Shown here in pieces: positions 425 to 28,162 of a DNA stretch of 64,000 bases. The DNA lies in NCBI GenBank assembly GCA_903881475.1, contig CAIRTK010000001.1:1-64000 (forward strand), written 5' to 3'. The stretch comes from an uncultured Opitutia bacterium. Lineage in GTDB: Bacteria > Verrucomicrobiota > Verrucomicrobiia > Opitutales > Opitutaceae. The notes below the pieces were generated by a model that made no database searches, was not told the DNA's origin, and saw only the letters and a program-made list of their open reading frames with translations. The number at the start of each line of letters is the position of its first letter. Positions within the stretch are counted from its first letter, which is position 1. Made by a program: the position numbers and the translations under genes.

Positions 425-2020
425 ATGAGCACTCCGCGCCCGCCCGTTCTCCTCGTCATCCGTGATGGCTGGGGCAAGAATCCCGATCCTTCGCAGGATA
501 AGTTCAACGCTGTCTTCCTCGCCAAGAAGGCCTGCGACGACGCCCTGCAGGCGAAGTACCCGCACACCCTGATCGCCGCGAGCGGGCTCGATGTCGGCCT
601 GCCCGACGGGCAGATGGGCAATTCCGAGGTCGGCCACGAGAACATCGGCGCGGGCCGCATCGTGGATCAGGAACTCGTGCGGCTGAACAAGCTGTTTTCC
701 GAAAAGCAACTCGCCGTGAATCCGGTCTGGCACGCGGTGGTGGCGCGCGTGAAGGCCTCGCCCACGGCGAAGCTGCACCTGATGGGGATCGTGTCCGACG
801 GCGGCGTGCACGGCATGCTAGAGCACCTCTACGGCATCCTGCGGCAGGCGAAGGAGGACGGCCTCACGCCAAAGCAGGTCTTCATCCACGGCTTCACCGA
901 CGGGCGCGACACCGCGCCGCAGAGCGGGCTCGGTTTCATCCAGCAGGTGGAGGCCAAATGCCGCGAGATCGGCCTCGGCACGATTGCGACGGTGTGCGGC
1001 CGCTTCTGGGCGATGGACCGCGACAACCGCTGGGAGCGCGTGCAGCAGGCTTACGACATGCTCACGGGCCGCAAGGCCGGGGCCACCGCGACGAGCGCAG
1101 AAGCGGCGATCCGGAATTATTACGAGCACCCGCTGAGCGAGACCCAGAAGGGCGACGAGTTTGTGCCGGCGACAACGATCACCGGACCCGACGGGCGCCC
1201 GCTCGCGACGATCGGCAACGGCGACGCCGTGCTGTTCTATAATTATCGCGGTGACCGTCCGCGCGAGATCACCAAGGCGTTTGTGCTGGATGACTTCAAG
1301 GGCTTCGACCGCGGCCCGAAGCTCGACCTCTATTATGCGACGATGACCGAGTACGAGGCGGGCCTGCCGGTGCATGTGATTTCGGGCAAGCCCGAGCAGC
1401 TGAAGAACATCCTCGGGCAAGTGGTGAGCGACGCCGGGATCGCGCAGTTCCGCTGCGCGGAGACGGAGAAGAACCCGCACGTGACCTTTTTCTTCAACAA
1501 CTACCGCGGCACGCCGTTTCTTGGCGAGGATCGCGCGTGTCCGCCAAGCCCGAAAGTGCCGACCTATGATCTGCAGCCGGAGATGTCTGCGGCCGAGGTG
1601 ACGCGGTTGACGAAGGAGGCGATCCTGTCCGGCAAGTACGGCCTCTTGGTCGTGAACTACGCGAATCCCGACATGGTCGGCCACACGGGTTCGTTGCCGG
1701 CCGCGATCAAGGCAGTCGAGGCGACGGACCGCGGGGTAGGGGAACTGCTGGCCGCGCTCGCCGCGAAGGGCGGCAAGGCCGTGATCTGCGCCGACCACGG
1801 CAACTGCGAGCAGATGTGGGACCCGGTGCACAACGTGCCGCACACGTCGCACACGCTGAACCTCGTCGAGGTGTTTGTCATCGGCGAGGGTCTGATCGCG
1901 GGTAAGACGCGGATGCGGACCGGCGGACGGCTGGCGGACATCGCGCCGACGGTGCTGGCGCTGATGGGTTTGCCGAAGCCCGCGGAGATGACCGGGCAGA
2001 ACCTGGTGCTGGCAGGCTGA
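425..2020 (+). CDS. gpmI: 2,3-bisphosphoglycerate-independent phosphoglycerate mutase
   Basis: This cytosolic enzyme interconverts 3- and 2-phosphoglycerate in glycolysis and gluconeogenesis without the bisphosphoglycerate cofactor. The protein is 531 aa, usual for the family. Visible signatures are the N-terminal metal-binding VIRDGWG, the MGNSEVGHENIGAGR segment containing the phospho-acceptor serine, HGFTDGRDT, CGRFWAMDRDNRWER, and the C-terminal metal ligands ADHGNCEQM and HTSHTLN. I chose the ATG at 425 because it places MSTPRPPVLLVIRDG at the family N-terminus; the upstream in-frame extension to 353 is not family-like. It stands alone, followed by REPIN B2. Confidence 0.97.
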   Translation: MSTPRPPVLLVIRDGWGKNPDPSQDKFNAVFLAKKACDDALQAKYPHTLIAASGLDVGLPDGQMGNSEVGHENIGAGRIVDQELVRLNKLFSEKQLAVNPVWHAVVARVKASPTAKLHLMGIVSDGGVHGMLEHLYGILRQAKEDGLTPKQVFIHGFTDGRDTAPQSGLGFIQQVEAKCREIGLGTIATVCGRFWAMDRDNRWERVQQAYDMLTGRKAGATATSAEAAIRNYYEHPLSETQKGDEFVPATTITGPDGRPLATIGNGDAVLFYNYRGDRPREITKAFVLDDFKGFDRGPKLDLYYATMTEYEAGLPVHVISGKPEQLKNILGQVVSDAGIAQFRCAETEKNPHVTFFFNNYRGTPFLGEDRACPPSPKVPTYDLQPEMSAAEVTRLTKEAILSGKYGLLVVNYANPDMVGHTGSLPAAIKAVEATDRGVGELLAALAAKGGKAVICADHGNCEQMWDPVHNVPHTSHTLNLVEVFVIGEGLIAGKTRMRTGGRLADIAPTVLALMGLPKPAEMTGQNLVLAG

Positions 2021-2040
2021 GACGAACTGACCAGATCGGA

Positions 2041-2136
2041 AGGTGGAGCGAGTTGTCCTCAGCACGCTGAGCAGATCTGCCGAGTTTGGTCGCAGACGGA
2101 GTCCAACAACGCGTTGAGGGCAACGCGTTCCACCCT
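2041..2136. repeat. REPIN-like element B2
   Basis: This copy has the same architecture as B1. The left unit starts AGGTGGAGCG and is decayed (AGTTGTCCTCAGCACGCT), whereas the right unit keeps the perfect hairpin AACGCGTTG-AGGG-CAACGCGTT and ends CCACCCT. It fills the gap between gpmI and the next gene. Confidence 0.8.
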
Positions 2137-2205
2137 CAGTCGCCGAAAAATCAAATTCTCGCCCGTCCGGTCATCATGGGTCAGAGTCGGGTAACACTGT
2201 TCCTC

Positions 2206-2697
2206 ATGAAGCGATCCATTCTCCTCCTTGCCCTGCTCGGCGCGCTGCCGGCCGCGGTGCGGGCGCAGATGCTCTGGCCGGGCACGGAGGCGGGGATGAC
2301 GGTTGATCAGGTGCAGCGCGAATTTCCGGCGGCGCATGCGCCGGAGAACCCGGTCGAACTGCCCAATGAGCGCGGCGTGCAGCTGCTGGAACTCGACGAG
2401 GCGGTCGTCGCCGGGCACACGTTCACTGTGAGGTTTTTCTTCAAGGAGCGGCTCCTCTCGTATGTGGCCCTCGGCGAGACCGGGGAGATTCCGGCGAAGG
2501 AGTTCGAGAAGTTCCGGATCCTCCTGCGCGGGAAATACGGCTTGGAATACTCCACGCTCAACTCCGAGTATATCCAGGTCACCTGGAAGGCGGTCAAAAC
2601 CGTCATCCGGCTGTCCTGGGCGCCCCAGGGACACGGGGTCGCCACGCTCATCATCAGCTACGAAGCCCCGATCATCAAGGAGACCGACCGACTATGA
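2206..2697 (+). CDS. Secreted hypothetical protein, 163 aa
   Basis: I do not recognise a named family. The N-terminus from the ATG at 2206 (MKRSILLLALLGALPAAVRAQ) is a good Sec signal peptide with an Ala-x-Ala-like cleavage site, so the mature protein should be periplasmic. The segment after it (PGTEAGMTVDQVQREFPAAH) resembles the short GMT-x-x-QV helix seen at the start of SmpA/BamE-like and related small periplasmic domains, but this is only suggestive. The stop overlaps the start of a 55-codon gene by four bases (ATGA at 2694), implying translational coupling. An in-frame ATG at 2176 is possible but would bury the signal peptide. Confidence 0.75.
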   Translation: MKRSILLLALLGALPAAVRAQMLWPGTEAGMTVDQVQREFPAAHAPENPVELPNERGVQLLELDEAVVAGHTFTVRFFFKERLLSYVALGETGEIPAKEFEKFRILLRGKYGLEYSTLNSEYIQVTWKAVKTVIRLSWAPQGHGVATLIISYEAPIIKETDRL

Positions 2698-2861
2698 CCT
2701 ACACGGATGCCAATGGCGACCTGACCCTCGAATGCGATCCGTCAGCGGAGGTGATCCGGCTCAAGGCCGTGGCGACCTTCGACGACCCCGTCGAGCTGAC
2801 GGCCGATGCGGCGCGGGAACTCGCGCAGCAGTTGCTCCGACTGGCGGATGAAATTGATTGA
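2694..2861 (+). CDS. Small hypothetical protein, 55 aa, coupled to the secreted protein upstream
   Basis: A 55-codon frame starts at an ATG overlapping the TGA of the preceding gene (ATGA). The translation begins MTYTDANGDLTLECDPS, ends RELAQQLLRLADEID, and is acidic. It has a beta-rich first half and an amphipathic helix at the end, and no signal peptide. Codon choice is GC3-rich like its neighbours. The four-base overlap is the main support that it is translated. No function can be assigned. Confidence 0.6.
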   Translation: MTYTDANGDLTLECDPSAEVIRLKAVATFDDPVELTADAARELAQQLLRLADEID

Positions 2862-2901
2862 GCCTGGCCGGACCGGATTACCCGCGAATGGCCGCTGATT
2901 G

Positions 2902-4053
2902 ATGCGAATGAAAACACCGGTCGGACGGGTTCCACTTTTGGTTTTCTGGCTGGCCGGCCTCATGAGCTGCGCGGTACCTGGTGTGTTGCGGGCCCAAACC
3001 CCTCCGGCCGCCGGATCGCTGACGATCCAGTGCCCGATGGCCTGCCGCATTTCGATCCCGGAACTGGGCGTTAACGACGACGCGCCCAAGGACCACCTCC
3101 AGCTGGCGGGCGTTCCGGCGGGGACCTACACCGCCACGTTCAGCGCCTACAACCGGCAGGTGTCGCACACGTTTGTGATCACCGCGGGGCAGGCGACCCG
3201 TTTCAGTGTGAATATCGCCCAGGGCAAGGTGCGGGATCTCGGTCCACCGGATCCGGCTGCCGCCCCACCGGCCGGACCGGCACCGGTTTCCCCCGATCCA
3301 AAGAGGACCGCCACCCGGGAAGATCCGCTGGCTGCTCCGCGTTTTGTCATCCCGGAGATCGGGATCACGATGATCGCGGTGCCGCCCGCGAGCTTCATCA
3401 TGGGCACGGAACTGGGCAACCGGAACGAGCGGCCGCTGACCCGCATCACGCTTTCCCGCCGGTATTGGTTGAGCCGGACGGAAGTGACGGAGTCGCAATG
3501 GCTGGCCCTGATGGAAACCAATCCTTCGAAGGAGCCGGCCCCGGACCGGCCGGTGACGAGTGTCTCGTGGATTGATGCCATGGAATTCTGCCAGCGCCTG
3601 ACGAGGCACGAGCGGTCCGTGGGACACCTGCCCGAGGGCTATTTCTATATCCTGCCGTTCGAGGCGCAATGGGAGTACGCCTGCCTGGCCGGCGGGGAGG
3701 GCCGTCTGGAGGATGAGCTCAAGCGCACCGGATGGTACCAGTCGAACAGCGGCGGCCATGACCACCCGGTCGGCCAGTTGGCGCCGAACGCGTGGGGTTT
3801 CCAGGACATGCGCGGCAACGTGGCCGAATGGTGCTTTGACTGGCTGGGCGCCTATCCCGGAGGCATGCAGACCGACTACGCCGGGCCGGCGAGCGGCGCA
3901 CAGCGGGTCATCCGCGGCGGAGCCTACGACCTGATCGCTTTCTGCTGCAGGGCTTCCTACCGCACCGGTGAGGCCCCGGATAAGACCCATCCCAACGTCG
4001 GTTTCCGTATCGCCCTGTTCTCGCTGCCGCCAAAGGCGGGTAACGCGAAGTGA
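2902..4053 (+). CDS. Secreted SUMF1/FGE-fold domain protein with N-terminal PEGA-like domain
   Basis: The protein has a signal peptide (about residues 1-30 ending VLRAQ), then a PEGA-like beta domain (SLTIQCPM... to FSVNIAQGKV), a Pro/Ala linker, and a C-terminal formylglycine-generating-enzyme-fold domain. Hallmarks of the latter are VPPASFIMG, RTEVTESQWLALM, PVTSVSWIDAMEFCQRL, FEAQWEYACLAGG, GFQDMRGNVAEWCFDW, RVIRGGAYD and HPNVGFRIAL. The active FGE cysteine after RGGSW is Asp here, so true sulfatase-activating activity is unlikely. Such domains often serve as binding or accessory modules of secreted enzymes. Start is ATG 2902 or 2908 (a TTG at 2899 is also in frame). The bases around these starts match dispersed repeat D. 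Confidence 0.85.
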   Translation: MRMKTPVGRVPLLVFWLAGLMSCAVPGVLRAQTPPAAGSLTIQCPMACRISIPELGVNDDAPKDHLQLAGVPAGTYTATFSAYNRQVSHTFVITAGQATRFSVNIAQGKVRDLGPPDPAAAPPAGPAPVSPDPKRTATREDPLAAPRFVIPEIGITMIAVPPASFIMGTELGNRNERPLTRITLSRRYWLSRTEVTESQWLALMETNPSKEPAPDRPVTSVSWIDAMEFCQRLTRHERSVGHLPEGYFYILPFEAQWEYACLAGGEGRLEDELKRTGWYQSNSGGHDHPVGQLAPNAWGFQDMRGNVAEWCFDWLGAYPGGMQTDYAGPASGAQRVIRGGAYDLIAFCCRASYRTGEAPDKTHPNVGFRIALFSLPPKAGNAK

Positions 4054-4068
4054 GGGTGGGCGGGTTCA

Positions 4069-4331
4069 GCCGGTAGCAGCCGACGTGAGGAGGCTGGCGC
4101 AAGCCGCTTCGGCAGTATCGGCCGGAGTGTGTTGGCCACAAAAAGGCACAAAGGGCCTGTGGTTGCGAAGGAGCTGCCATTGCGCCAGGGGCGCGTATGG
4201 GGATTCGAGCCGAAGCCCTGGTTTTTTTGCGTCTTTTTGTGGCCATCCCTCCAAGGTCAGAGCTCGGTTCGCTAAGGGCTCTTCCGCCTTCGCGTTTCCA
4301 ACCCAGCCTCCTCACGTCGGCTGCTACCGGC
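4069..4331. repeat. REP pair C1 (28-bp inverted repeat) split by element A1
   Basis: The left unit (4069-4096) begins CCGGTAGCAGCCGACGTG, and the right unit (4303-4331) is its near-exact inverse. The gap between the arms is about 205 bp and contains the whole of palindrome A1. A compact, unsplit copy of the same family lies at 43259-43333, so A1 looks like an insertion into C1. Together the two fill the 356-bp gap between the SUMF gene and aspS; I see no gene in that gap. Confidence 0.8.
4133..4245. repeat. Long palindromic element A1
   Basis: One of seven copies of a ~115-bp element whose two halves are inverted complements. It starts TGGCCACAAAAAGGCACAAA and ends GTCTTTTTGTGGCCA. The centre (GCGCCAGGGGCGCG) is decayed relative to the GCGCCTATAGGCGC of other copies. 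Related copies are at 11327, 12368, 19520, 25870, 28006 and 41682. Confidence 0.85.
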
Positions 4332-4409
4332 CCGGTGCATGACCGAAATTCTATTTGCCCGTGGGGCCGGCCCTCCGCTTAGCTCTCCTGTTCCTCCCGG
4401 AACTTTCCC

Positions 4410-6694
<2,285 letters not shown>

Positions 6695-6925
6695 GGACGG
6701 TCGGGGCGGGTAGCGCAGGCATCCTGCCTGCAGTCTGGAGGCTGGGCGGTCACGTCCCATGACCGCATGGGAGGGCTTCATCGTCCTGACTGGCCGCTCC
6801 GGACTCTACCGATCAAGACCCACGCATGCGGGCACAGGGACGTGCCCGCCCACCACTGCCTCCAGGCTGGTTCCGCGGGGAGCCGGTCCTTGGTTTTTGA
6901 GGCAATGACCTGACGGCTTGCCCGG

Positions 6926-6941
6926 TGGCATGGGTGATGCT
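6926..6941 (+). promoter_or_regulatory. Candidate sigma-54 promoter upstream of amtB
   Basis: TGGCATGGGTGATGCT matches the -24/-12 consensus TGGCACG-N4-TTGCW at all fixed positions but two, with exact 10-bp spacing between GG and GC. Sigma-54 control of amtB is established in other bacteria. The predicted transcription start (about 6952) is only a few bases before the ATG at 6954/6960, so the transcript would be nearly leaderless. That is a reason for caution. Confidence 0.45.
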
Positions 6942-6953
6942 TGGAGATAGTTG

Positions 6954-8767
<1,814 letters not shown>

Positions 8768-8817
8768 CCCCTTCCCTGACAGCGTGTCAGGCTGACTACA
8801 ACACAACGACAGACACC

Positions 8818-8849
8818 GCCGGCCCCGTGCAAACGGGGCCGGCGTTTTT
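8818..8849 (+). terminator. Rho-independent terminator of glnK-amtB-glnK
   Basis: A perfect 11-bp stem GCCGGCCCCGT/ACGGGGCCGGC with a GCAA tetraloop is followed by GTTTTTG. It lies just after the second PII gene. A smaller hairpin, CCTGACA-GCG-TGTCAGG, sits before it at 8775-8791. Confidence 0.9.
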
Positions 8850-8930
8850 GTTGGGCGGTCCCGCCCTACCTTTCAACCCGGCCGGAAAAATCCCGTCGAA
8901 ATTCTCCCAAACCTGCTTTCACTGTCCGTA

Positions 8931-9869
8931 ATGTCCGGCCTCCATCGCATCCGTTTCATCGATTCCCACACGGGCGGCGAGCCGACCCGGCTCGTGGTGG
9001 AGGGCGGTCCGGATCTCGGCCCGGGTCCGCTTGGCGAGCGGGTGGCCCGATTCCGGGAAAAATTCGACTCATGGCGCACGGCGATCGTGAACGAGCCGCG
9101 CGGCTCCGACACCGTTGTGGGGGCGTTGTTGGTCGCGCCGCATCGCCTGGACTGCCAGTGGGGCGTCATCTTTTTCAACAACGTCGGCCCGCTCGGCATG
9201 TGCGGCCACGGCACCATCGGCCTCGTGGCGTCGCTGGCGCACCTCGGCCGGATTTCTCCCGGCCGGGTCAACATCGACACGCCGGTCGGTGCCGTCGGGG
9301 CCGAGTTGCACCCGGACGGACAGGTCTCGGTCGACAACGTCGCCAGCTACCGCCGCGCCCGGGGCGTCGCCGTCACGCTGCCCGGACTCGGCGCGGTGCG
9401 AGGCGACGTCGCGTGGGGTGGCAACTGGTTTTTCCTCGTCGAAGAACACGGCCTGACGCTGGACCTGGCGAATCTTGAGCGCCTCACGGAGTACACCTGG
9501 CGGGTGCGGCAGGCCGTGAACGCGCAGGGGTTTCCCGAGGTGGACCACGTCGAACTCTTTGGGTCGTCGCCCCGGACCGGGGCGCACAGCCGGAATTTTG
9601 TCCTCTGCCCGGGCAAGGCCTACGACCGCTCGCCCTGCGGCACGGGCACCAGCGCAAAGCTGGCCTGCCTCGCCGCCGACGGGAAACTCGCCGAGGGGGC
9701 GGCGTGGGTGCAGGAGAGCGTGATCGGCAGCACGTTCACGGGCCGCTATCGCTGGCTGGACCGCGCCAAGGGCGAGGTGGCGCCGGTGATCACGGGGACG
9801 GCCTTCATCATGGCGGAGGGCGAACAGTTGCTCGATCCGCGCGATCCGTTTTGCTGGGGGATCCGCTAA
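8931..9869 (+). CDS. 4-hydroxyproline 2-epimerase (proline racemase family)
   Basis: It inverts C-alpha of trans-4-hydroxy-L-proline to give cis-4-hydroxy-D-proline, the first step of hydroxyproline catabolism. The 312-aa protein has both catalytic cysteines, C91 in GMCGHGTIG and C236 in SPCGTGTSAK. This separates it from the Ser/Thr-bearing trans-3-hydroxyproline dehydratases of the same family. The N-terminal IRFIDSHTGGEPTRLV is the family start. The three genes that follow supply the rest of the pathway, which makes the hydroxyproline assignment much stronger than proline racemase. Confidence 0.92.
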   Translation: MSGLHRIRFIDSHTGGEPTRLVVEGGPDLGPGPLGERVARFREKFDSWRTAIVNEPRGSDTVVGALLVAPHRLDCQWGVIFFNNVGPLGMCGHGTIGLVASLAHLGRISPGRVNIDTPVGAVGAELHPDGQVSVDNVASYRRARGVAVTLPGLGAVRGDVAWGGNWFFLVEEHGLTLDLANLERLTEYTWRVRQAVNAQGFPEVDHVELFGSSPRTGAHSRNFVLCPGKAYDRSPCGTGTSAKLACLAADGKLAEGAAWVQESVIGSTFTGRYRWLDRAKGEVAPVITGTAFIMAEGEQLLDPRDPFCWGIR

Positions 9870-9877
9870 AATGAGTT

Positions 9878-10024
9878 TGCCCGCGAATGGCCGCCAATCG
9901 CCACGAATGAAAACAACCCATCGCGAGGTATGGATAGTTCCGTTCCATGCGGGAGACTTCATGGATCGATCAAAAAATCTCTCATCGGTCGAAATTCGCG
10001 CTTATTCGCGGCCATTCGCGGGCA
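9878..10024. repeat. D-type inverted repeat between pathway genes
   Basis: TGCCCGCGAATGGCCGC (9878-9894) is perfectly inverted at 10008-10024 as GCGGCCATTCGCGGGCA. The spacer includes CACGAATGAAAACAAC. A half copy, CCCGCGAATGGCCGCTGATT followed by GCGAATGAAAACACC, lies at 2880-2917 over the start of the SUMF gene. A looser relative (GCTAATGAGCGCTAATC) is at 26970-27000. Confidence 0.75.
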
Positions 10025-10031
10025 CACCGGT

Positions 10032-11300
10032 ATGACTCCGGCCCGATCGAAATCTGTCATCATTTGCGGCGGCGGCATTGTAGGCCTTAGCTGCGCCTAT
10101 TATCTGGCCCGGGACGGCTGGGCGGTGACGGTGGTGGAGCGCAATGCCGAGGGGGCGGATTCCTGTGCCCAGGGCAGCGCGGGCTACATCTCACCGAGTC
10201 ATGTCATTCCGTTGGCGGCGCCCGGCATGGTGGCGAACGGCCTGAAGTGGATGCTGAGTTCGCGCAGCCCGTTCTACATCAAGCCGCGGCTCGATGCCGG
10301 CCTGCTGCGCTGGGGCTGGCTGTTCGCCCGGTCCTGCACACCACAGCATACCCGCCGCGCCGCGCCGGTGCTGCGCGACCTGTGCCTGGGGGGACGGAAA
10401 CTGTTCCTGGAACTGGCCGCCGCCACGGGCGACGCGTTCGAGCTGAAGCAGGAGGGCCTGCTCAACCTCTGCCAGACGCAGGAAACCCTGGATCACGAGA
10501 CGCACGGCCTCGCCGCGCTCGCGAACGAACTGGGCGTCGAGGCACGCGTGCTCGATGCGAAGCAAACGGCGGTGCTCGAGCCGGGCACGCGGCTCGATGT
10601 CATCGGCTCGGTCTATTTTCCCAGCGATGCGCACCTGACGCCGCGGAAATTCATGCCGGCACTGACCGGACTGCTGCAGCGGATGGGTGTGACCTTTCGC
10701 TGGAACACGAGTGTGGAAGGGTGGCTTGCCGAAGGCGGGCGGGTGGTCGCGGTTCAGACCACCGCAGGCGAACTCAAGGCGGATGAGTTTGTGCTCGCGG
10801 GCGGTTCGTGGTCGGCGGCGATGACCGCCGGCCTGGACATCCGGCTGCCGCTGCAGGCGGGCAAGGGCTACAGCCTCACGCTCGACCAGCCGCGTTTCAA
10901 GCTGACCAAGTCGATGATCCTCACGGAACGCCGCGTGGCGGTCACCCCGATGGGCGACAAGCTGCGCTTTGGCGGCACGATGGAGATCGCCGGCCACAGT
11001 GACCGCATCCGGCCCGAGCGGGTGGAGCAGATCATCGCGGGCGCGCAGGCTTTTCTGCCCGAGTTCACGCCGGCCGACTTTGCCGGGATCAAACCATGGT
11101 TCGGCTACCGGCCGGTGTCGCCGGACGGCCTGCCCTACATCGGCCGCTTCGGCCGTCATCCCAACCTCACCGCCGCCTGCGGGCACGCGATGCTGGGGGT
11201 CACGATGGCCCCGATCACCGGCCTGCTGGTCAGCGAGGTCCTCGGCGGCCGCGAGCCATCGGTCCCGCTCGCAATGCTCAGTCCCGACCGGTTTTCGTAA
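10032..11300 (+). CDS. D-amino-acid (cis-4-hydroxy-D-proline) dehydrogenase, FAD-dependent
   Basis: A DadA-like flavoprotein of 422 aa. The Rossmann FAD motif VIICGGGIVGLSCAYYLARDG is near the N-terminus, and the C-terminal FAD/substrate region is GIKPWFGYRPVSPDGLPYIGR ... ACGHAMLGVTMAPITGLLVSE. By context it oxidises cis-4-hydroxy-D-proline to delta-1-pyrroline-4-hydroxy-2-carboxylate, passing electrons to the respiratory chain. The ATG at 10032 was chosen because it begins just before the FAD motif; the in-frame extension to 9930 is encoded by repeat D. Confidence 0.9.
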   Translation: MTPARSKSVIICGGGIVGLSCAYYLARDGWAVTVVERNAEGADSCAQGSAGYISPSHVIPLAAPGMVANGLKWMLSSRSPFYIKPRLDAGLLRWGWLFARSCTPQHTRRAAPVLRDLCLGGRKLFLELAAATGDAFELKQEGLLNLCQTQETLDHETHGLAALANELGVEARVLDAKQTAVLEPGTRLDVIGSVYFPSDAHLTPRKFMPALTGLLQRMGVTFRWNTSVEGWLAEGGRVVAVQTTAGELKADEFVLAGGSWSAAMTAGLDIRLPLQAGKGYSLTLDQPRFKLTKSMILTERRVAVTPMGDKLRFGGTMEIAGHSDRIRPERVEQIIAGAQAFLPEFTPADFAGIKPWFGYRPVSPDGLPYIGRFGRHPNLTAACGHAMLGVTMAPITGLLVSEVLGGREPSVPLAMLSPDRFS

Positions 11301-11326
11301 ATGCCCAACCCAATCCCACGGGTTGT

Positions 11327-11440
11327 TTGCCACGAAAAGGCACAAGGTTACCAAGGCTCTGAATCGAATCTCCCGCGCGCCTATAGGCGCAATGGAGGCT
11401 CCTTCGCAGCCCTAGCTGCCTTGTGCCTCTTTGCGGCCAA
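11327..11440. repeat. Long palindromic element A2
   Basis: This copy runs from TTGCCACGAAAAGGCACAAG to CCTTGTGCCTCTTTGCGGCC. The central 14-bp perfect palindrome GCGCCTATAGGCGC is at 11377-11390. It fills most of the gap between the dehydrogenase and the deaminase of the hydroxyproline cluster. Confidence 0.9.
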
Positions 11441-11461
11441 CCCTCTGAATCTTCCCATCCC

Positions 11462-12355
11462 ATGAACTGGAAAGGCGTCATCCCGGCCATCACGACCAAT
11501 TTTCGCGCCGATGGCGCGGTCGACCACGCGGCGCTGGCGCGGCATTGCCGCTGGATGATCGACAGCGGCTGCACCGGGATCGTGTGCTGCGGCTCGCTCG
11601 GCGAGGCGGCCACACTGTCGTCCAAGGAAGAGCTCGCCGTGGCTGCGACCTGCGTGAAGGCCGTCGGCCACCGGACCCCGGTCGTGCTTGGCATCGCGGC
11701 GTTGTCGACGGCGGAGGCGGTGGCGCTCGCCAAAGGCGCGGTGCGGGCGGGCTGCGAAGGCCTGATGGTGCTACCGCCGTACGTCTACAGCACGGACTGG
11801 CGCGAGATGAAGGCCCACGTGGGCGCCGTCATCTCCGCCACGAAGCTTTCCTGCCTGCTCTACAACAACCCGCCGGCCTACAAGACGGACTTCCTGCCCT
11901 GGCAGATTGCCGAGCTGGCGGCGGATCATCCGAACCTGCACGCGGTGAAGGAATCGAGCGGCGATACCCGCCGGGTGACGGCCATCCGGATCGCGTGCGG
12001 ACGCCGGCTGGATGTGCTGGTCGGCATGGACGACGCTATCGTCGAGGGCATTTACGCGGGTGCGGTCGGGTGGATCGCCGGCCTCGTGAATGCGTTTCCG
12101 GAGGAGTCGGTCGAGCTGTTCGATTACGCGAGCCGGGGGGACAAGGCGCGCGCGGCCGAACTCTACGCGTGGTTCCTGCCGCTGCTGCGGCTCGATACGG
12201 TGCCGAAGTTCGTGCAGCTCATCAAATGGGTGCAGGCGGAGGTCGGCCGGGGGAATCCCACGGTGCGTGCGCCGCGGCTGCCGCTGGCGGGCGTGGACCT
12301 CGCGCACGCGAAGGCTGTGCTGGCCAAGGCGCTGAAAACGCGGCCCAAGTCGTGA
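11462..12355 (+). CDS. DapA-family lyase, probable 1-pyrroline-4-hydroxy-2-carboxylate deaminase
   Basis: A TIM-barrel class I aldolase-fold enzyme of 297 aa. The Schiff-base lysine is K163 (HAVKESSGD), the helper tyrosine is Y134 (LLYNNPPAY), and the substrate-carboxylate loop is CGSLGEAATLS. These fit the DHDPS/NAL superfamily, but the YNNPxxY variant and the neighbours point to the hydroxyproline-pathway deaminase that yields 2-oxoglutarate semialdehyde and ammonia, not to lysine synthesis. Start: ATG 11462 after CCATCCC, no Shine-Dalgarno. Dihydrodipicolinate synthase activity is the alternative. Confidence 0.88.
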   Translation: MNWKGVIPAITTNFRADGAVDHAALARHCRWMIDSGCTGIVCCGSLGEAATLSSKEELAVAATCVKAVGHRTPVVLGIAALSTAEAVALAKGAVRAGCEGLMVLPPYVYSTDWREMKAHVGAVISATKLSCLLYNNPPAYKTDFLPWQIAELAADHPNLHAVKESSGDTRRVTAIRIACGRRLDVLVGMDDAIVEGIYAGAVGWIAGLVNAFPEESVELFDYASRGDKARAAELYAWFLPLLRLDTVPKFVQLIKWVQAEVGRGNPTVRAPRLPLAGVDLAHAKAVLAKALKTRPKS

Positions 12356-12367
12356 GCTTCGGAATGG

Positions 12368-12482
12368 TTGGCCACAAAAAGGCACGAGGGTACCGGGGCT
12401 GCGAAGGAGCTTCCATCGCGCCTATAGGCGCAATGGAGATCCGATTCGGAGCCTTGGCCCATTTGGGCCTTTTTGTGGCCAA
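12368..12482. repeat. Long palindromic element A3
   Basis: TTGGCCACAAAAAGGCACGA begins it, and GGGCCTTTTTGTGGCCAA ends it. The perfect centre GCGCCTATAGGCGC is at 12418-12431. The symmetry extends outward loosely (TTCGGAATGG on the left, CACCTCCGGAG on the right), suggesting a full element nearer 135 bp. It separates the deaminase and aldehyde dehydrogenase genes. Confidence 0.9.
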
Positions 12483-12547
12483 CACCTCCGGAGTAATTTT
12501 GCCGATGGCATTCGCCACTTTGGCCCAATCCTGTCAGGTTTGAATAC

Positions 12548-14132
<1,585 letters not shown>

Positions 14133-14134
<2 letters not shown>

Positions 14135-14161
14135 GTGGAACGCGTTGCCCTCAACGCGTTT
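14133..14161. repeat. Single REP unit B3, left flank of the RAYT gene
   Basis: AGGTGG is followed by the perfect hairpin AACGCGTTG-CCCT-CAACGCGTT (14139-14160). It overlaps the last bases of the upstream stop codon and lies about 50 bp before the RAYT gene. Confidence 0.85.
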
Positions 14162-14211
14162 GAAGCGTGGCAAACTAGCCGTTCCGACTGCACCACAAAG
14201 CACCGAGCTGG

Positions 14212-14634
14212 GTGAAAGACGGATCGATCTTTCACATCCGCATTCGGACTGATCTCCGTCAGAAAGCCTTACTGACGACGCCAGCGCTGGCGACTGATCT
14301 GTTGAAATCCGTCCAGCTCTACCACGCCGCCGGCAAATGGTGGCGCGACCTCTTTCTGCTCATGCCGGATCACCTCCATGCCTTGCTGGCTTTTCCACGC
14401 GAACCCGGCATGGCGGCGACCATCCGCGAATGGAAACGGGGCGCGGCCCGACTTCAGCGCGTCAAATGGCAGGAGAACTTCTTCGATCACCGTCTCCGCA
14501 GCGACAAGCTCGGTGCGGAGACGTGGCACTATATCCGACGGAACCCGGTCGTGAAGGAATTATGTCCGGATGAGGATTCGTGGACCTATTGGTGGAGCGG
14601 GACGCTTGCTGCCGGCGGAGCAGATGGTGCATGA
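14212..14634 (+). CDS. REP-associated tyrosine transposase (RAYT, Y1_Tnp family)
   Basis: A single-domain Y1 HUH nuclease of 140 aa related to IS200/IS605 TnpA. The metal-binding HUH-type pair is H54-L-H56 in LLMPDHLHALLAF, and the catalytic tyrosine is Y107 in WHYIRRNPVVKEL. No accessory tnpB or IS ends are present, and the gene is flanked by REP unit B3 and REPIN B4, the normal RAYT setting. The GTG at 14212 is the only usable start. The codons before it back to a TAG at 14176 (PFRLHHKAPSW) look like family N-terminal sequence without ATG/GTG/TTG, so the 5' end may be decayed or use a rare CTG (14188). Confidence 0.88.
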   Translation: MKDGSIFHIRIRTDLRQKALLTTPALATDLLKSVQLYHAAGKWWRDLFLLMPDHLHALLAFPREPGMAATIREWKRGAARLQRVKWQENFFDHRLRSDKLGAETWHYIRRNPVVKELCPDEDSWTYWWSGTLAAGGADGA

Positions 14635-14662
14635 CAGGAAACTATTTGAGCTCTCCCGTACC

Positions 14663-14760
14663 CGGGTGGAACGTATTGCCCGCAATACGTTATTTGGCCC
14701 CGTCCACGATTAGACTCGGACGGAGCTGCTCAGCGCATTGAGGGCAATACGCTCCACCCG
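14663..14760. repeat. REPIN-like element B4, right flank of the RAYT gene
   Basis: The inverted pair starts GGGTGGAACGTATTGCCCGC and ends GGGCAATACGCTCCACCC. The core uses ATTGCCC/GGGCAAT in place of the GTTGCCC/GGGCAAC seen in B1-B3, a coordinated change in both arms. It lies between the convergent RAYT and thrS genes. Confidence 0.85.
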
Positions 14761-14767
14761 GGACTTG

Positions 14768-16684
14768 TTAGGTTTTCTTCGCCGGCAGGGCGCGGGTGGT
14801 GACCTCGGTCTTCAGCTTGGCGACATAGGCGTCGACGGTCATCACGCCCTCGTCGCCGCGGGCGCGGCTGCGGACGGAGACGCTGGCGGCCTCGGCCTCC
14901 TTCTGGCCGATCACCAGCGTGTAGGGCACCTTGTCGAGTTCGGCCCGGCGGATCTTGGCGCCGAGCTTGTCGCTGTGCTCGTCGAGCGACGCGCGCAGGC
15001 CTTCGCCCTTCAGGCGGGCGAGGACGGTGTGCGCGTACTCGTTGAGCTTGTCGCTGATGGTCACGAGCCGCACCTGCTCGGGCGCGAGCCACGCGGGGAA
15101 GTCGCCGCCGAAGTGCTCGATCAGCACGCCGCAGAAGCGCTCCATCGAGCCGAACGGCGCGCGGTGGATCATCACGGGACGGTGCGGCTGGTTGTCGGCG
15201 CCGATGTAGGACAGGTCGAAGCGCACGGGCAGGTTGTAGTCGACCTGCACGGTGCCGAGCTGCCACTCGCGGCCGATGACGTCCTTGATGACGAAATCGA
15301 TCTTCGGGCCGTAGAACGCGGCCTCGCCGGGCTCCTCGGTGAAGGGCACGCCGAGGGTCTTGGCGGCCTCGCGGCAGGCGTGCTCGGCCTTGTCCCAGTT
15401 GGCGGCGTCGCCGGTATACTTGTTGGAGTCGGGGTCGCGGAGGCCGACGCGCACGCGGTAGTCGGCCATGCCGAGCGTGGAGAGCACGATCTTCACGAGC
15501 GAAAGGCACCCTAGGACCTCCGCGGCGACCTGCTCCTCCGTGCAGAACAGGTGGGCGTCGTCCTGCGTGAAGCCACGGACGCGGGTCATGCCGTTGAGCT
15601 CGCCGGACTGTTCCCAGCGGTAGACGGTGCCGAACTCGGCGAGCCGCACGGGCAGGTCACGGTAGGAGTGCGGCTGCGAGGCGAAGATCTTGATGTGGTG
15701 TGGGCAGTTCATCGGCTTCAGCATGAAGCCGTCGAGCAGCTGGTCGTCGGGTTTCACACGATCGGGCGTGATGGTTTCCCGGCCGGTGCGCTGGTTGACC
15801 TGCGAGGCGAGGCGCGCGGAGACGGCCTCGAGGCGCGCGTACACCTCGGCGCAGGAGCAACCCTCATGGATGACCTTGGCGAGCGACTCGTTTTCGATCA
15901 CGGGCGAGAACTGCGATTCCTTGTAGTAGGGAAAATGGCCGGAGGTCTTGTACAGCTCGAGCTTGCCGATGTGCGGTGTGAAGACCTGCGAGTAGCCCTG
16001 CTTGCGCAGCTCGCCGCCGATGAAGTCCTGCAGCTCCTGGCGGATGATTGAGCCGTTGGGCGTCCAGAGGATGAGGCCCTGGCCGACGTCCTCGTCGATG
16101 ACGAAGAGCTTGAGGTCCTTGCCGAGCTTGCGGTGGTCGCGGAGCTTCGCCTGCTCCTGCTGCTCCAGGTAGGCGGCGAGCTCGTCCTTGGTCGGGAAGG
16201 CGGTGCCGTAGATGCGCTGGAGCTGCTTGTTCTTCTCGTCGCCGCGGTGATACGCGCCGGCGATGGAGAGGAGCTTGAACGCCTTCAGCTTCGACGAGTA
16301 GCGCACGTGCGTGCCGGCGCAGAGGTCCATGAACTCGCCGTTTTGGTAGAACGAGATCTTCTCGCCCTCGGGGATGTCGGCCAGGCGGCCAAGCTTGTAG
16401 CGCTCCTGGCCGCGGGACTTGATGATCTCGACCGCCTCCTCGCGGGAAACCTCCTTGCGCAGGAACGGCTGGTTCTCGTCGGCGACCTTCTTCATCTCGG
16501 CCTCGATTTTGACGAGATCCTCGGCGGTGAATTTGTGGTCGAGGTCGATGTCGTAGTAGAAGCCGGTCTCCGTCGGCGGACCGATGTCGAGCTTGGCGTC
16601 CGGCCAGAGGCGGAGGATCGCGGTCGCGAGGATGTGCGACGCGGAGTGGCGGAGTTCTTCGAGCGGGGACATGGGCGAGGACAT
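14768..16684 (-). CDS. thrS: Threonyl-tRNA synthetase lacking the N-terminal TGS domain
   Basis: A class II synthetase, 638 aa. The editing (N2) domain starts almost at the N-terminus, with its zinc/editing residues H13-x3-H17 (LRHSASH) and later DLCAGTH. The catalytic core follows (LKPMNCPHHIKIF, YRWEQSGELNGMTRVRGFTQDDAH), then the anticodon-binding domain (PEQVRLVTISDKLNEYA). In typical bacterial enzymes the HxxxH lies near residue 73 after a TGS domain; that domain is absent. About 50 residues containing CSC (around 15730-15890) sit between the SGHFPYYKESQF segment and LKPMNCP, where E. coli ThrRS has a short link. Its leader is pyrimidine-rich (TTTCTTCTC-ATG). Confidence 0.96.
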   Translation of the reverse strand: MSSPMSPLEELRHSASHILATAILRLWPDAKLDIGPPTETGFYYDIDLDHKFTAEDLVKIEAEMKKVADENQPFLRKEVSREEAVEIIKSRGQERYKLGRLADIPEGEKISFYQNGEFMDLCAGTHVRYSSKLKAFKLLSIAGAYHRGDEKNKQLQRIYGTAFPTKDELAAYLEQQEQAKLRDHRKLGKDLKLFVIDEDVGQGLILWTPNGSIIRQELQDFIGGELRKQGYSQVFTPHIGKLELYKTSGHFPYYKESQFSPVIENESLAKVIHEGCSCAEVYARLEAVSARLASQVNQRTGRETITPDRVKPDDQLLDGFMLKPMNCPHHIKIFASQPHSYRDLPVRLAEFGTVYRWEQSGELNGMTRVRGFTQDDAHLFCTEEQVAAEVLGCLSLVKIVLSTLGMADYRVRVGLRDPDSNKYTGDAANWDKAEHACREAAKTLGVPFTEEPGEAAFYGPKIDFVIKDVIGREWQLGTVQVDYNLPVRFDLSYIGADNQPHRPVMIHRAPFGSMERFCGVLIEHFGGDFPAWLAPEQVRLVTISDKLNEYAHTVLARLKGEGLRASLDEHSDKLGAKIRRAELDKVPYTLVIGQKEAEAASVSVRSRARGDEGVMTVDAYVAKLKTEVTTRALPAKKT

Positions 16685-16716
16685 GAGAAGAAAGAGAGAG
16701 ACGGATCAGATTAATG

Positions 16717-16790
16717 GCAAAGACGCGAAGGCGCTAAGGTCGGATGGAAGATGGGTTATGGGTTCGAACTTGGCGCCTTCGCGTCTTCGC
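16717..16790. repeat. F-type inverted repeat F1
   Basis: GCAAAGACGCGAAGGCGC (16717-16734) is inverted at 16773-16790 with one mismatch. The spacer includes GTCGGATGGAAGATG. It matches F2 (25263-25361) in arms and in the CGGATGGAAGA spacer. It lies between the end of cysS and the start of thrS. Confidence 0.75.
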
Positions 16791-16803
16791 GATTCAAAAA
16801 CGA

Positions 16804-18294
<1,491 letters not shown>

Positions 18295-18502
18295 GAAAAG
18301 GGAAGGAGGAAGGGTGGAACGCTGAAGTAAATTCCGCCGCGGCGGAATGCTGTTTTTGCGGGCGGCGCGACCGGGCGCCGGCGGTTGTCGGACTCAACAA
18401 CCGCAACGCGTCGTTCGCGTCGTGGTGGTACGGCGCGAGGCGGTGCAAAAACGTGTGGCGAACCGGGGCATGGCGTGCTCTAGTCCGCCGAAGAACGCGA
18501 AT

Positions 18503-19516
18503 ATGCCCGACAACTTCAAGCTCGATCTCATCCACCGTCCCCGCCGGCTGCGCCGCACGGCCAGCCTGCGCGCCCTCACCGAGGAAACGGTGCTGCACGC
18601 GGCCGATTTCATCGCGCCGCTCTTCGTGGTGGACGGCAAAAGCCGGCCCGAGGAGATCAAATCCATGTCCGGCGTCTTCCGCCTGGGCATCGGCGACCTC
18701 GTCAAGGAGTGCTGCGCGCTGCATCGGCTGGGCGTCCGGGCCGTGGCGCTATTCCCGAAGCTCGATCCAAAGCTCAAGGACCACGAGGGCACGCAGGCCC
18801 TGAACGAGGAGTCCCTGATCCTGCGCGCGGTGCGCGCGGTGAAGCAGGCCGTGCCGGAGCTGGCGATCCTCACCGATGTGGCGCTCGACCCGTACACGAC
18901 CCACGGGCACGATGGCGTGCTCACGGCCGAGATGGACGACGTCGAGAACGACCGGACGGTGGGCATCCTGACTCGGATGGCGGTGATGCAGGCCCGCGCG
19001 GGCGTGGACCTGGTGGCGCCGTCGGACATGATGGACGGGCGCGTGGGGGCGATCCGGCGGGCGCTGGACGCGGCGGGTTTTTCCGGCACGGGCATCATGG
19101 CCTACTCGGCCAAGTTCAACTCGGGTTACTACGGCCCGTTCCGCGACGCGGTCGGCAGCGCCCAGGCGGCGGGCACGCGCCTGCTGAGCAAGGCCACCTA
19201 CCAGCTCAACCCGGCGAACCGCCGCGAGGCCATCGCCGAGGCGCTCCTCGACGAGTCCGAAGGGGCCGATATCCTCATGGTGAAGCCCGCCGGGCTTTAC
19301 CTCGATATCATCCGGGACATCCGCGAGGTGACCCGGAAGCCGGTCGCGGCGTACCAGATTTCCGGCGAGTACGCGCAGATCCACGCCGCGGCGAAACTCG
19401 GCTGGCTCGACCTGGCCCGCTGCCGGCACGAATCGCTGATCGCGATCAAACGCGCGGGCGCGGACATGATCCTGACGTATTTCGCGAAGGAGATGGCGGC
19501 AGAGTTGGGCCGCTGA
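18503..19516 (+). CDS. hemB: Delta-aminolevulinic acid dehydratase (porphobilinogen synthase), Mg type
   Basis: It condenses two 5-aminolevulinate molecules to porphobilinogen in tetrapyrrole synthesis. The 337-aa protein has both Schiff-base lysines (AYSAKFNSGYYGPFRDA and LMVKPAGLYLD). The metal-site loop is DVALDPYTTHGHDGVL with Asp in place of the zinc-binding cysteines, placing it in the Mg-dependent branch. The ATG at 18503 fits the family N-terminus (MPDNFKLDLIHRPRRLR); the upstream frame to 18347 is not family-like. It converges with the next gene across element A4. Confidence 0.97.
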   Translation: MPDNFKLDLIHRPRRLRRTASLRALTEETVLHAADFIAPLFVVDGKSRPEEIKSMSGVFRLGIGDLVKECCALHRLGVRAVALFPKLDPKLKDHEGTQALNEESLILRAVRAVKQAVPELAILTDVALDPYTTHGHDGVLTAEMDDVENDRTVGILTRMAVMQARAGVDLVAPSDMMDGRVGAIRRALDAAGFSGTGIMAYSAKFNSGYYGPFRDAVGSAQAAGTRLLSKATYQLNPANRREAIAEALLDESEGADILMVKPAGLYLDIIRDIREVTRKPVAAYQISGEYAQIHAAAKLGWLDLARCRHESLIAIKRAGADMILTYFAKEMAAELGR

Positions 19517-19519
19517 TCT

Positions 19520-19634
19520 TTGGCCACAAAAAGGCACAAAGGTGCCGGGGCTGCGAAGGAATCACCCTAGCGCCGATAGGCGCGCGGGGGATTAGAGACG
19601 AAGCTTCGGAAATTTTGCGCCTCTTGGTGGCGAA
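19520..19634. repeat. Long palindromic element A4
   Basis: It starts TTGGCCACAAAAAGGCACAA, carries a decayed centre (AGCGCCGATAGGCGCG) and ends TGCGCCTCTTGGTGGCGAA. It sits between convergent genes directly after the hemB stop. It is more diverged on its right arm than the other copies. Confidence 0.85.
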
Positions 19635-19689
19635 AAATCCGAAAGCCTCGCGGTTGTGGGCTGAATTCTGATGGCTGACCGCCGGAACG

Positions 19690-20286
19690 TTAAAACGGCG
19701 AGCGCGGCACCTGGACGGAATCGCCCGGCATCAGGTGGATGTCCTGCGCGGGATTTTTCTGCGCAAGGATGATGTTCACGTCGTAGGCCTTCTGCTCGCG
19801 CGTCAGGTTCACCTTCGTCTCCTTGGCGTAGAGGGTGAAGCCGCCGGCGGCCTGGATCGCCTTGCTCGCGGTGAGGTCGGGCGTCCACACGATGCGGCCG
19901 GGGCGGGCGACTTCGCCGCCGACATAGACATAGCGCTCGGTGACGCTCACGGAGACGTCGACGGTGCGGTAGATTTTTTTGGCGACGTAGGTTTCGCGGA
20001 TGCGCTGCGCCAGCTCCCCCGGGGTCGTGCCCGCGGTGCTCATGATGCCGATGTAGGGCAGGGTGATGGTGCCGCGGTCATCGATCTGCACCGGATTGAT
20101 GCTGGGATCGGGCACGCCCTGCAGGGCGACCGTCAGGCTGTCACCGGGCCGCAGCTGGGCCGAGGCCGTGGCGGCGGCGGGAACCTGCGGGTTGGCGTCG
20201 GAGACGCCGTCGGTCTCGCAGCCTGAAAAAAACACCGGGAGGGCGGCGGCCAGACAGAACAGCAGGGGACGGCGGGGAGAAACCAT
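19690..20286 (-). CDS. Polysaccharide export (Wza/SLBB-type) lipoprotein
   Basis: 198 aa. The N-terminus LLFCLAAALPVFFSGCETDG is a lipoprotein signal with the lipobox SGC. A poly_export domain follows (LRPGDSLTVALQGVPDPSINPVQIDDRGTITLPYIGIM), then one SLBB-like unit (YVYVGGEVARPGRIVWTPDLTASKAIQAAGGF). It is much shorter than Wza (about 380 aa), so it carries only the base module, as in the short proteins of Verrucomicrobia and Bacteroidetes export systems. No other capsule genes are nearby. The ATG at 20286 follows a pyrimidine tract. Confidence 0.88.
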   Translation of the reverse strand: MVSPRRPLLFCLAAALPVFFSGCETDGVSDANPQVPAAATASAQLRPGDSLTVALQGVPDPSINPVQIDDRGTITLPYIGIMSTAGTTPGELAQRIRETYVAKKIYRTVDVSVSVTERYVYVGGEVARPGRIVWTPDLTASKAIQAAGGFTLYAKETKVNLTREQKAYDVNIILAQKNPAQDIHLMPGDSVQVPRSPF

Positions 20287-25368: not shown

Positions 25369-25860
25369 TCAGCGCAGCCGGAGGGTGTGCCGCTCATCGG
25401 GGGCGATGCCGAGTTCGAGGTGCAGGGCGCCGGCGGGCAGCCACGCGGCGATTTTGTCGGGCCACTCGACGGCGAGGCACCACGGCGACACCAGGAAATC
25501 CTCCAGCAGCAGGTCCTCGATTTCCCGGGCGCTTTCCAGCCGGTAGGCGTCGAGATGCACGAGGGTGCGCGAGGCCGGCCCGGCTTCGCCCGGATTGGCC
25601 CCGCCGTGGGATTTTTGCCGCTCCCGGCCGGGAGCACGATGGACCGTGTAGATGTTGAAGGTGGGGCTGGTCACGGGCTCGGTGAGACCGAAGCCGCGGG
25701 CGAGGCCTTGGACGAAGGTCGTTTTGCCGACGCCGAGATTGCCGTGCAGGGCGAGCGTGGTGTCGGCCGGCAGCCCGGCGGCGAGTTCCGCGGCAAGTGC
25801 CTGGGTTTCGGCGGCCGAGGCGGTGGTAACGCCGGCCCGGAGTTGCTCCAGGATCGTCAT
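25369..25860 (-). CDS. tsaE: tRNA N6-threonylcarbamoyladenosine biosynthesis ATPase TsaE
   Basis: P-loop ATPase partner of TsaBCD in t6A37 formation on ANN-decoding tRNAs. The 163-aa protein has Walker A GNLGVGKTTFVQGLARGFG, SPTFNIYTVH, HLDAYRLE and VEWPDKI. Some 20 residues (PGRERQKSHGGANPGEAGPA) are inserted between SPTFNIYTVH and LVHLDAYRL relative to usual TsaE. That DNA contains a perfect 16-bp palindrome at 25620-25635. Start ATG 25860 precedes the family-like MTILEQL. Confidence 0.93.
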   Translation of the reverse strand: MTILEQLRAGVTTASAAETQALAAELAAGLPADTTLALHGNLGVGKTTFVQGLARGFGLTEPVTSPTFNIYTVHRAPGRERQKSHGGANPGEAGPASRTLVHLDAYRLESAREIEDLLLEDFLVSPWCLAVEWPDKIAAWLPAGALHLELGIAPDERHTLRLR

Positions 25861-25869
25861 GGGCGGGGG

Positions 25870-25984
25870 TTGGCCACGAAATGGCACGAGGACATGTGGG
25901 CTCCGGATCGAATCTCCCGCGCGCCTATCGGCGCAATGGCGACGTCTTCGCAGTCCCGGTACCCTTGGGCCTCATTGTGGCCAA
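25870..25984. repeat. Long palindromic element A5
   Basis: It begins TTGGCCACGAAATGGCACGA and ends GGGCCTCATTGTGGCCAA. The centre is GCGCCTATCGGCGC, one base from perfect. It lies between the thiL stop and the tsaE start, both on the minus strand. Confidence 0.9.
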
Positions 25985-26002
25985 CCCATTCCGGAGTTTT
26001 CA

Positions 26003-27885: not shown

Positions 27886-28005
27886 GGGCTCCCAGTGCGA
27901 AGGAAAACCTCGGGTCGCGCAACGCCAAGTGCGGGGTCGCGGGTCATTCGTTCCGGATTGTCATCACGAAGGTCACGAAGAGCACGAAGGCCGAGCCATC
28001 GGAAG

Positions 28006-28120
28006 TTAGCCGCAAAGAGACACAAAATTTCCGGGGCTCCGGCTCGAATCTCCCGCGCGCCTATAGGCGCAATCGAGACTCCTCCGAAGCCCCTGTACCC
28101 TTGTGCCTTTTTGTGGCCAA
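28006..28120. repeat. Long palindromic element A6
   Basis: It starts TTAGCCGCAAAGAGACACAA, has the perfect centre GCGCCTATAGGCGC (28057-28070) and ends GTGCCTTTTTGTGGCCAA. It lies between pyrC and the CPBP gene. A short run of ACGAAGGTCACGAAGAGCACG-type units (27966-27990) precedes it. Confidence 0.9.
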
Positions 28121-28162
28121 CCCTCCGGGATTTACGGGCAGAGCGTAGTGTGCTCTTCGCGG

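Follow-up and report, generated by a model that had tools for sequence, protein, structure and literature searches.

In the window, the whole 64,000-nucleotide stretch of DNA from an uncultured Opitutaceae bacterium that was analysed, a single RAYT-like nuclease gene stands between copies of a hairpin repeat (REP), and this gene or its ancestors most likely spread these repeats through the genome, as judged from sequence. We consider it likely that this locus holds a REP/RAYT unit inherited vertically in a fixed position, whose HUH nuclease would have mobilised paired REPs (REPINs) and whose nuclease gene was lost in some relatives and is now starting to decay in the window. The RAYTs of this clade, a separate verrucomicrobial branch, carry H-x-R in strand beta1, and this motif goes with REPs whose head reads GTGG. 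The features of the locus, and the two other REPINs of the window, are as follows.

14134-14160, plus strand: single REP GGTGGAACGCGTTGCCCTCAACGCGTT, GTGG head at 14135-14138 (direct reading)
14167-14178, plus strand: start position of the nearest orthologue; the window has GTG GCA AAC TAG, with an in-frame stop at 14176-14178
14179-14634, plus strand: frame of the RAYT-like HUH/Y1 nuclease, 151 codons and a stop, with CTG 14188 and GTG 14212 as internal starts
14227-14250, plus strand: strand beta1, H19-x-R21-x-R23 (structure model and conservation)
14371-14379, plus strand: HUH motif H65-L-H67 (sequence and alignment)
14530-14532, plus strand: conserved tyrosine Y118 (sequence and alignment)
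14665-14758, no strand: REPIN 3' of the RAYT, with REP 14665-14691 (plus) and REP 14732-14758 (minus)
166-267, no strand: REPIN, 102 bp (direct reading)
2042-2134, no strand: REPIN, 93 bp, left REP degenerate with 2 mismatches

A preliminary description had placed a REP hairpin upstream of a single-domain Y1 nuclease gene and a full REPIN downstream of it; direct reading bears out the former at 14134-14160, and the latter is present at 14665-14758. The REPINs that it reported at 165-268 and 2041-2136 are also there, at 166-267 and 2042-2134. The first G of the upstream REP is the last base of the stop codon TAG (14132-14134) of the preceding gene, and the same arrangement is seen in the relative with the nearest orthologue (G009). 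We take the left neighbour (12548-14134, plus strand) to be an aldehyde-dehydrogenase-like gene and the right neighbour (14768-16684, minus strand) to be a thrS-like gene, both judged by their sequence. An Rfam search of window positions 1-20000 gave no match.

The assignment of the gene as a RAYT-like Y1/HUH nuclease is well supported by sequence comparison and by a structure model. The protein matches NF047646 (REP_Tyr_transpos) with E 2.5e-16 and 59.9 bits, below the curated cut-off of 80, and Pfam Y1_Tnp with E 0.071, also below the family cut-off. Across 21 clade rows, H65 and H67 of the HUH motif never vary, and neither does Y118. The nearest solved structure by sequence, using profiles of relatives, is E. 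coli TnpAREP (4er8, E 2.3e-11 and 2.6e-13), and the model built from a 37-row alignment (mean pLDDT 86.5) has the same entry as its best fold match (E 7.3e-8, TM 0.69/0.64), with the ISDra2 and IS608 transposases ranking after it. The original proposal of a RAYT-like gene accompanied by REPs of its own clade is well supported by this agreement of sequence and fold, together with a REP head class that follows the RAYT tree. The flanking REPs are inverted and have a head of the GT[A/G]G type plus a palindrome, as expected beside a RAYT. Members of IS200/IS605 typically occur as several near-identical gene copies per genome, and no such set was found: the genome holds one RAYT of this clade, its other matches to the protein reaching at most 44% identity. 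In being single-copy and vertically inherited, with the same two flanking genes in three of 12 genus genomes, the gene is unlike an insertion sequence.

The repeats themselves are numerous and structurally constrained. Nine matches to the 17-base REP pattern (at most three mismatches) occur in the window, six of them exact, compared with a mean of 3.3 in shuffled windows, none of 100 shuffles reaching nine. The genome-wide count of B-type REPs suggested in the preliminary description yields 33+31 copies of the 17-base core in 3.21 Mb at no more than one mismatch, against 1+1 for the reversed pattern, and 55+46 against 4+6 at no more than two; cognate REPs are thus dispersed in many copies, as they are for other RAYTs. 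These pattern counts cover the whole genome, and the own-genome REPs used below for covariation, flanks and spacers come from the genome stretches examined. Within those stretches, 62 of 73 REP sites (at most two mismatches) form at least seven of nine stem pairs. Within this set of 62, stem pair 6/25 is A-T in 35, G-C in 24 and something else in three, and stem pair 10/21 is G-C in 44, A-T in 11, C-G in one and something else in six. Mean stem pairing over the 73 sites is 0.819, against a maximum of 0.761 in 200 shuffles of the arms, and covariation of the REP stems is general in this genome. The compensated variation first noticed in the REPIN at 14665-14758 is real in its left REP, where two compensated pairs give CGTATTG/CAATACG in place of CGCGTTG/CAACGCG, but incomplete in its right REP, which has one compensated pair and one T-G wobble. 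The paired elements have the inverted REPs, outward heads and preferred spacing that define REPINs, 22 of the 32 examined being 93-95 bp long.

Some of these REPINs lie inside a longer element. A flank repeat, here called repeat X (CCGGAGTCATGCAGTTG...), is found 19 or 52-54 bp outside the GGTGG head, and in three own-genome cases (C18:98900-99064, C33:7256-7421 and C55:88541-88707) one side has a long copy and the opposite side a short, inverted one, over 165-167 bp. At no more than five mismatches, repeat X accompanies 17 of 73 own REP sites and 7 of 41 in G008, a genus relative, against 0 of 365 and 0 of 205 at control offsets, respectively; at the same threshold it was found at none of the REP sites of four other genus genomes (0/61 in G003, 0/17 in G006, 0/10 in G004 and 0/8 in G009). 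Repeat X and the REPIN together look like a lineage-specific composite with terminal inverted repeats. The motif GGATTGAAA was considered as an insertion target, with 16 of 62 flanks matching at least six of its nine positions; because it is part of repeat X in several flanks, no target is claimed. The window also holds two dispersed repeat families of 115-130 bp, 73-78% like their reference copy, of which those at 4132, 11316, 12368 and 19520 have matching copies in the homologous contig of G008, and a 300-nt direct duplication (6352-6651 and 8425-8724, 85% identical).

114-165, plus strand: copy of flank repeat X next to the REPIN at 166, differing from the X pattern at 3 positions
4132-4246, 12368-12482 and 19520-19634: dispersed repeat copies, one family
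11316-11445, 25860-25989 and 27996-28125: dispersed repeat copies, other family

A RAYT tree set against REP sequence classes, another check suggested at the outset, shows head class following the tree. From 93 RAYTs at the collected loci, 90 entered a first tree after three under 90 aa were left out. One clade (SH-aLRT 98) unites 25 of them: GTGG REPs flank 24, no REP was found beside one, and GTAG REPs flank none. Head class changes six times on the tree, compared with shuffled means of 24 (90-RAYT tree) and 41 (138-row tree, see below). Strand beta1 reads H-x-R in 25/25 clade rows versus F-x-T in 65/65 others, and the position of the conserved N-terminal Thr is Arg in all 25 versus Thr in all 65. 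The residue after NPx is V in 18, A in six and R in one of the clade rows, and R or K in 62 of the 65 others.

The sample was then widened with a profile search of named records that used a profile of this clade and is hence enriched for its members. Of 304 relatives, 80 were kept; with one identical protein dropped and 18 already in the set, 61 further RAYTs remained, including by record title Opitutaceae, Chthoniobacter, Lentisphaerae and Kiritimatiellales. Heads were assigned by majority call, some rows being mixed (L408, 3 vs 2), and read GTGG in 45 of 46 H-x-R rows (the other is without a called REP) and in two variants that keep the His, and GTAG in all 13 F-x-T rows. Adding 48 of the 61 gave a tree of 138 rows, the 13 left out having stops, being fragments, or having no or mixed heads. 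Once L060 is removed from the H-x-R count as a false pattern match, 64 H-x-R rows form one clade (support 98), of which 63 have GTGG and one has no called head; the 63/63 agreement therefore refers to rows with a called head. A head could be called for 62 F-x-T rows, and it is GTAG in 56 of them and GTGG in six. The association of RAYT and REP, which had rested on proximity, holds, and does so on more than proximity, through the correspondence of clade and head on the tree and through the REP counts.

These data also define how far the correspondence goes. H-x-R goes with GTGG, yet GTGG can arise without H-x-R, and a universal beta1 rule for GTGG was accordingly rejected on the six F-x-T exceptions (L002, L137, L142, L143, L217 and L237, the calls for L142 and L002 each depending on a single hairpin). 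There are too few independent pairs: three lie on starred branches, with the residue at position 23 changing in the same direction in one and not differing in two. Since H-x-R with GTGG has a single origin on the tree, it is consistent with a role for beta1 without being a repeated experiment, and that role is hypothetical. The available part of Corneloup 2021 (PMC8266576) places the residues that contact GTAG in beta1, around beta4 and at the C-terminus, and describes one REP that, given a GTGG head, could be cut at CC; taken together, these points make it plausible that beta1 reads the third base of the head. We tentatively suggest, as a possible reading, that an ancient RAYT clade of Verrucomicrobiota and related PVC bacteria exchanged F-x-T-x-[CN] for H-x-R-x-R and NPV[RK] for NPVVK and thereby its guide GTAG for GTGG, while REP stems diverged freely, with beta1 positions 19, 21 and 23 reading the third guide base. 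If this were true, exchanging these three residues should exchange the preferred head as well, and the IS608-type pairing model predicts the same for the cleavage dinucleotide.

The unit occupies a fixed place within the genus, for which 12 genomes were sampled (G000, the window genome, to G011). A RAYT lies between the same two genes in G000, G009 and G003, in intergenic regions of 633, 503 and 840 bp, and its identity to the window copy is 70% in G009 and 64% in G003. At the corresponding locus of G006 (L151) a REPIN stands alone in an intergenic region of 106 bp, as if the gene had been lost from between its REPs or had never arrived. The intergenic regions of G001, G002, G004, G005, G007, G008 and G011 measure 55-99 bp and contain no GGTGGA or TCCACC, and in G010 the dehydrogenase gene is not adjacent to thrS. 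The end of ThrS in G008 is 97% identical to that of the window, and the RAYT is absent from this genome; because G003 and G009 (83%) carry it, the absence is most simply explained by loss, separate gains in different lines of the genus being the less simple account. The only RAYTs of G004 and G008 are more distant ones, GTAG-flanked or REP-less. The REPIN at 2042 is missing from the homologous G008 spacer, and five of 24 G008 REP elements tested coincide with an own REP (only part of the own REPs having been compared), so the repeats have probably moved since the split.

REP number follows the RAYT only loosely. At no more than one mismatch, the RAYT-bearing genomes G000, G003 and G009 have 64, 184 and 30 REPs. 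Genomes with no clade RAYT found include G006 (89), G008 (39), G011 (34), G004 (27) and G005 (25), and at the low end G002 (8), G007 (4), G001 (1) and G010 (1). The preliminary description had named abundant B-type REPs in relatives without a RAYT of this clade as the observation that would overturn the link, and in part this is what is seen, with 25-89 REPs in five of nine RAYT-less genus genomes; REP presence alone therefore does not track the RAYT, and a strict presence/absence relationship is too simple, as REPs persist where no clade RAYT was found. The test it suggested, whether relatives lacking the RAYT also lack the repeats, has a negative outcome for REPs in these five genomes; exact full REPINs give a clearer split, at 13, 25 and 4 with the RAYT versus 8, 5, 3, 2, 1, 1, 0, 0 and 0 without it (4 of 220 permutations as extreme, one-sided p 0.018). 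Intact REPINs thus track the RAYT better than REP number does, although RAYT-bearing G009 has fewer (4) than RAYT-less G006 (8) and G004 (5).

Across 120 family genomes, at least five exact REPs occur in 11 of the 15 whose RAYT shows 50% identity or more versus 12 of the 105 others (p 1e-6), and in 11 of 22 clade-assigned genomes (21 by tree, G114 by identity of a fragment) versus 12 of 98 (p 2e-4); relatedness is ignored in both comparisons, so these p values are optimistic. The other 11 of the 22 genomes with a clade RAYT have fewer than five exact REPs of this stem. Among the 12 of 105 without a close RAYT but with at least five REPs are G083 (26), G014 (20) and G045 (33), the last having a RAYT fragment at a contig edge that was not counted as clade. 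Beside the G084 RAYT stands a REP with a quite different stem, which at no more than one mismatch occurs 15 times in G084 and 15 times in G075, at most four times in any other of the 120 genomes and not at all in five sampled genus genomes; most of the G075 copies are a variant differing by a single base, and G075 yielded no close RAYT. Most of these genomes are drafts, in which a RAYT can be missed, and G006 is 83% complete. RAYT loss followed by slow decay of REPs would explain most of the REPs in RAYT-less genomes, and the available part of Nunvar 2013 (PMC3686654) explains a like pattern in pseudomonads in the same way.

The preliminary description took the gene as intact, which is doubtful: its frame opens only at 14179, directly behind the in-frame TAG at 14176-14178. 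Where the G009 orthologue starts with ATG AAG GAC TAC, the window reads GTG GCA AAC TAG, a stop in place of a sense codon. Most clade rows have an ATG some codons ahead of the conserved PxRLHH, and in the other 24 the eight codons compared ahead of the aligned start are free of stops. The window copy may therefore already be broken at its start. We regard it as possible, though we are somewhat doubtful, that it still works and is not decaying, either from an internal start (CTG 14188 or GTG 14212) or because a sequencing error produced the stop. In favour of this, the remainder of the frame is open and keeps HUH, WQ and Tyr, and the genome is a draft of 83 contigs; however, L4, H6, P9 and W11 are invariant in 21 rows, all four are lost from GTG 14212, and CTG 14188 begins at L4, so that part of the clade N-terminus would be missing. 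The REPINs also bear on this point. In 13 exact own-genome REPINs the nearest-neighbour spacer identity averages 0.68 and never exceeds 0.78, with shuffled spacers at 0.62, whereas in G003, which has an uninterrupted RAYT frame, it averages 0.88, with 18 of 25 REPINs at 0.8 or above. RAYT-bearing G009 (mean 0.61, 0/4 at 0.8 or above) is low and RAYT-less G006 (0.80, 3/8) is high, so that spacer age and RAYT presence do not agree neatly. On balance the window copy is probably at the beginning of a path toward RAYT loss with REPINs remaining.

Two further accounts would remove the RAYT from its central role. The REPs could be kept for a host function, as a terminator, mRNA end protection or a protein binding site, with the RAYT a passenger and the link of head and clade a matter of shared ancestry. 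Persistence of REPs in genomes without this RAYT, arms in G008 that by eye are still paired in many cases, and the host roles of REPs cited in the available part of PMC6006769 all agree with this; clade RAYTs are nevertheless flanked by REPs with quite different stems, often repeated on both sides, and one such REP class is numerous in only two of 120 genomes, making a host function an improbable explanation. We think it very improbable that B-type REPs are mobilised by another RAYT of the same genome, on C11 or C25 or the broken gene on C69. Three further family matches do exist in the genome, but that on C69 has GTAG REPs and that on C11 a GTGGGCGGGGTG hairpin, and no hairpin with arms of at least eight stands beside that on C25, a weak objection as the same criterion also missed B-type REPs.

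The steps of the favoured account, a REP/RAYT unit with its own nuclease, can be set out as follows. The unit would have been inherited vertically in this genus between the aldehyde-dehydrogenase-like gene and thrS. The RAYT would recognise the GTGG head of the REP hairpin together with the hairpin's stem and loop, and would have copied or moved REPINs, mostly of 93-95 bp, through nicks and strand transfer in single-stranded DNA. H-x-R-x-R in beta1 of the clade, instead of F-x-T-x-[CN], would go with reading G and not A in the head. Some relatives have probably lost the RAYT and kept REPINs, and the window copy, with a stop before the conserved start and spacers diverged almost to random level, is probably entering the same path.

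The other family members in this genome were noted in their own right. A second RAYT (L065, own C69, about 455-951) is split over two frames and flanked by GTAG REPs (GGTAGGGCGCGTTATCCC); the related genes of G014, G054 and G129 are open throughout, with an almost identical REP. A third (L063, own C11, 5479-6058) has a downstream hairpin, GTGGGCGGGGTGccctCACCCCGC, unlike the B-type. L064 (own C25, 4870-5884) codes for a Y1 protein about 330-340 aa long, with matches in nine of 12 genus genomes, and no hairpin with arms of at least eight, a strict criterion, was found beside the three copies of this type examined.

Compared with known systems, as far as the available parts of the cited sources describe them, the locus is largely familiar. 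It shares with E. coli TnpAREP and its REPtron (4er8; PMC8266576) the HUH nuclease with one Tyr, the fold, and a head tetranucleotide with hairpin in inverted orientation beside the gene. The REP of E. coli combines GTAG with a bulged stem, unlike the GTGG REPs found here, whose perfect stems and short loop resemble group 3 of PMC8266576. In E. coli TnpAREP, beta1 reads F15-x-T17-x-N19 (mapped by alignment) versus H19-x-R21-x-R23. Pseudomonad and stenotrophomonad RAYTs (PMC3686654, PMC2817692) likewise have GT[A/G]G heads and REPINs, REP classes that follow RAYT orthogroups, and RAYT loss with slow REP decay. Nunvar 2010 (PMC2817692) describes two features peculiar to RAYTs, an N-terminal Thr conserved at 100% and the motif NP(L/V)(R/K)xG. 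This clade has neither signature: the Thr is absent from the window RAYT and all 25 clade rows, and the window reads NPVVKE at the second motif. By the 2010 motif list the clade thus lacks two RAYT signatures, and by gene structure, REP association and fold it resembles a RAYT. The same source lists GTGG RAYTs of Pseudomonas, so the GTGG head itself is not new. Di Nocera 2013 (PMC3733652) describes a like verrucomicrobial REP set, the GTAG repeats of Opitutus terrae, in which most GTAG-20 copies carry GTGG; unlike the present analysis, the available part of that paper describes neither a RAYT clade nor a correspondence of head and protein. Earlier publications cover GTGG heads, REPINs, RAYT loss and O. 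terrae REPs (PMC3686654, PMC3733652, PMC6006769), and no account of this clade or of its beta1 and NPVV changes was found in the open-licence literature. What is new is a clade without two published RAYT-specific motifs, and a window copy with an in-frame TAG before the conserved start.

How RAYTs recognise REPs, and what becomes of REPs once the RAYT is lost, have been studied mainly in gammaproteobacteria. The clade described here offers a clean protein-DNA correspondence, holding in 63 of 63 rows with a called head. The genus adds a graded series, from G003 with a RAYT and young REPINs, through the window with a RAYT that is perhaps interrupted and G006 with a REPIN alone, to G008 and six others with nothing at the locus.
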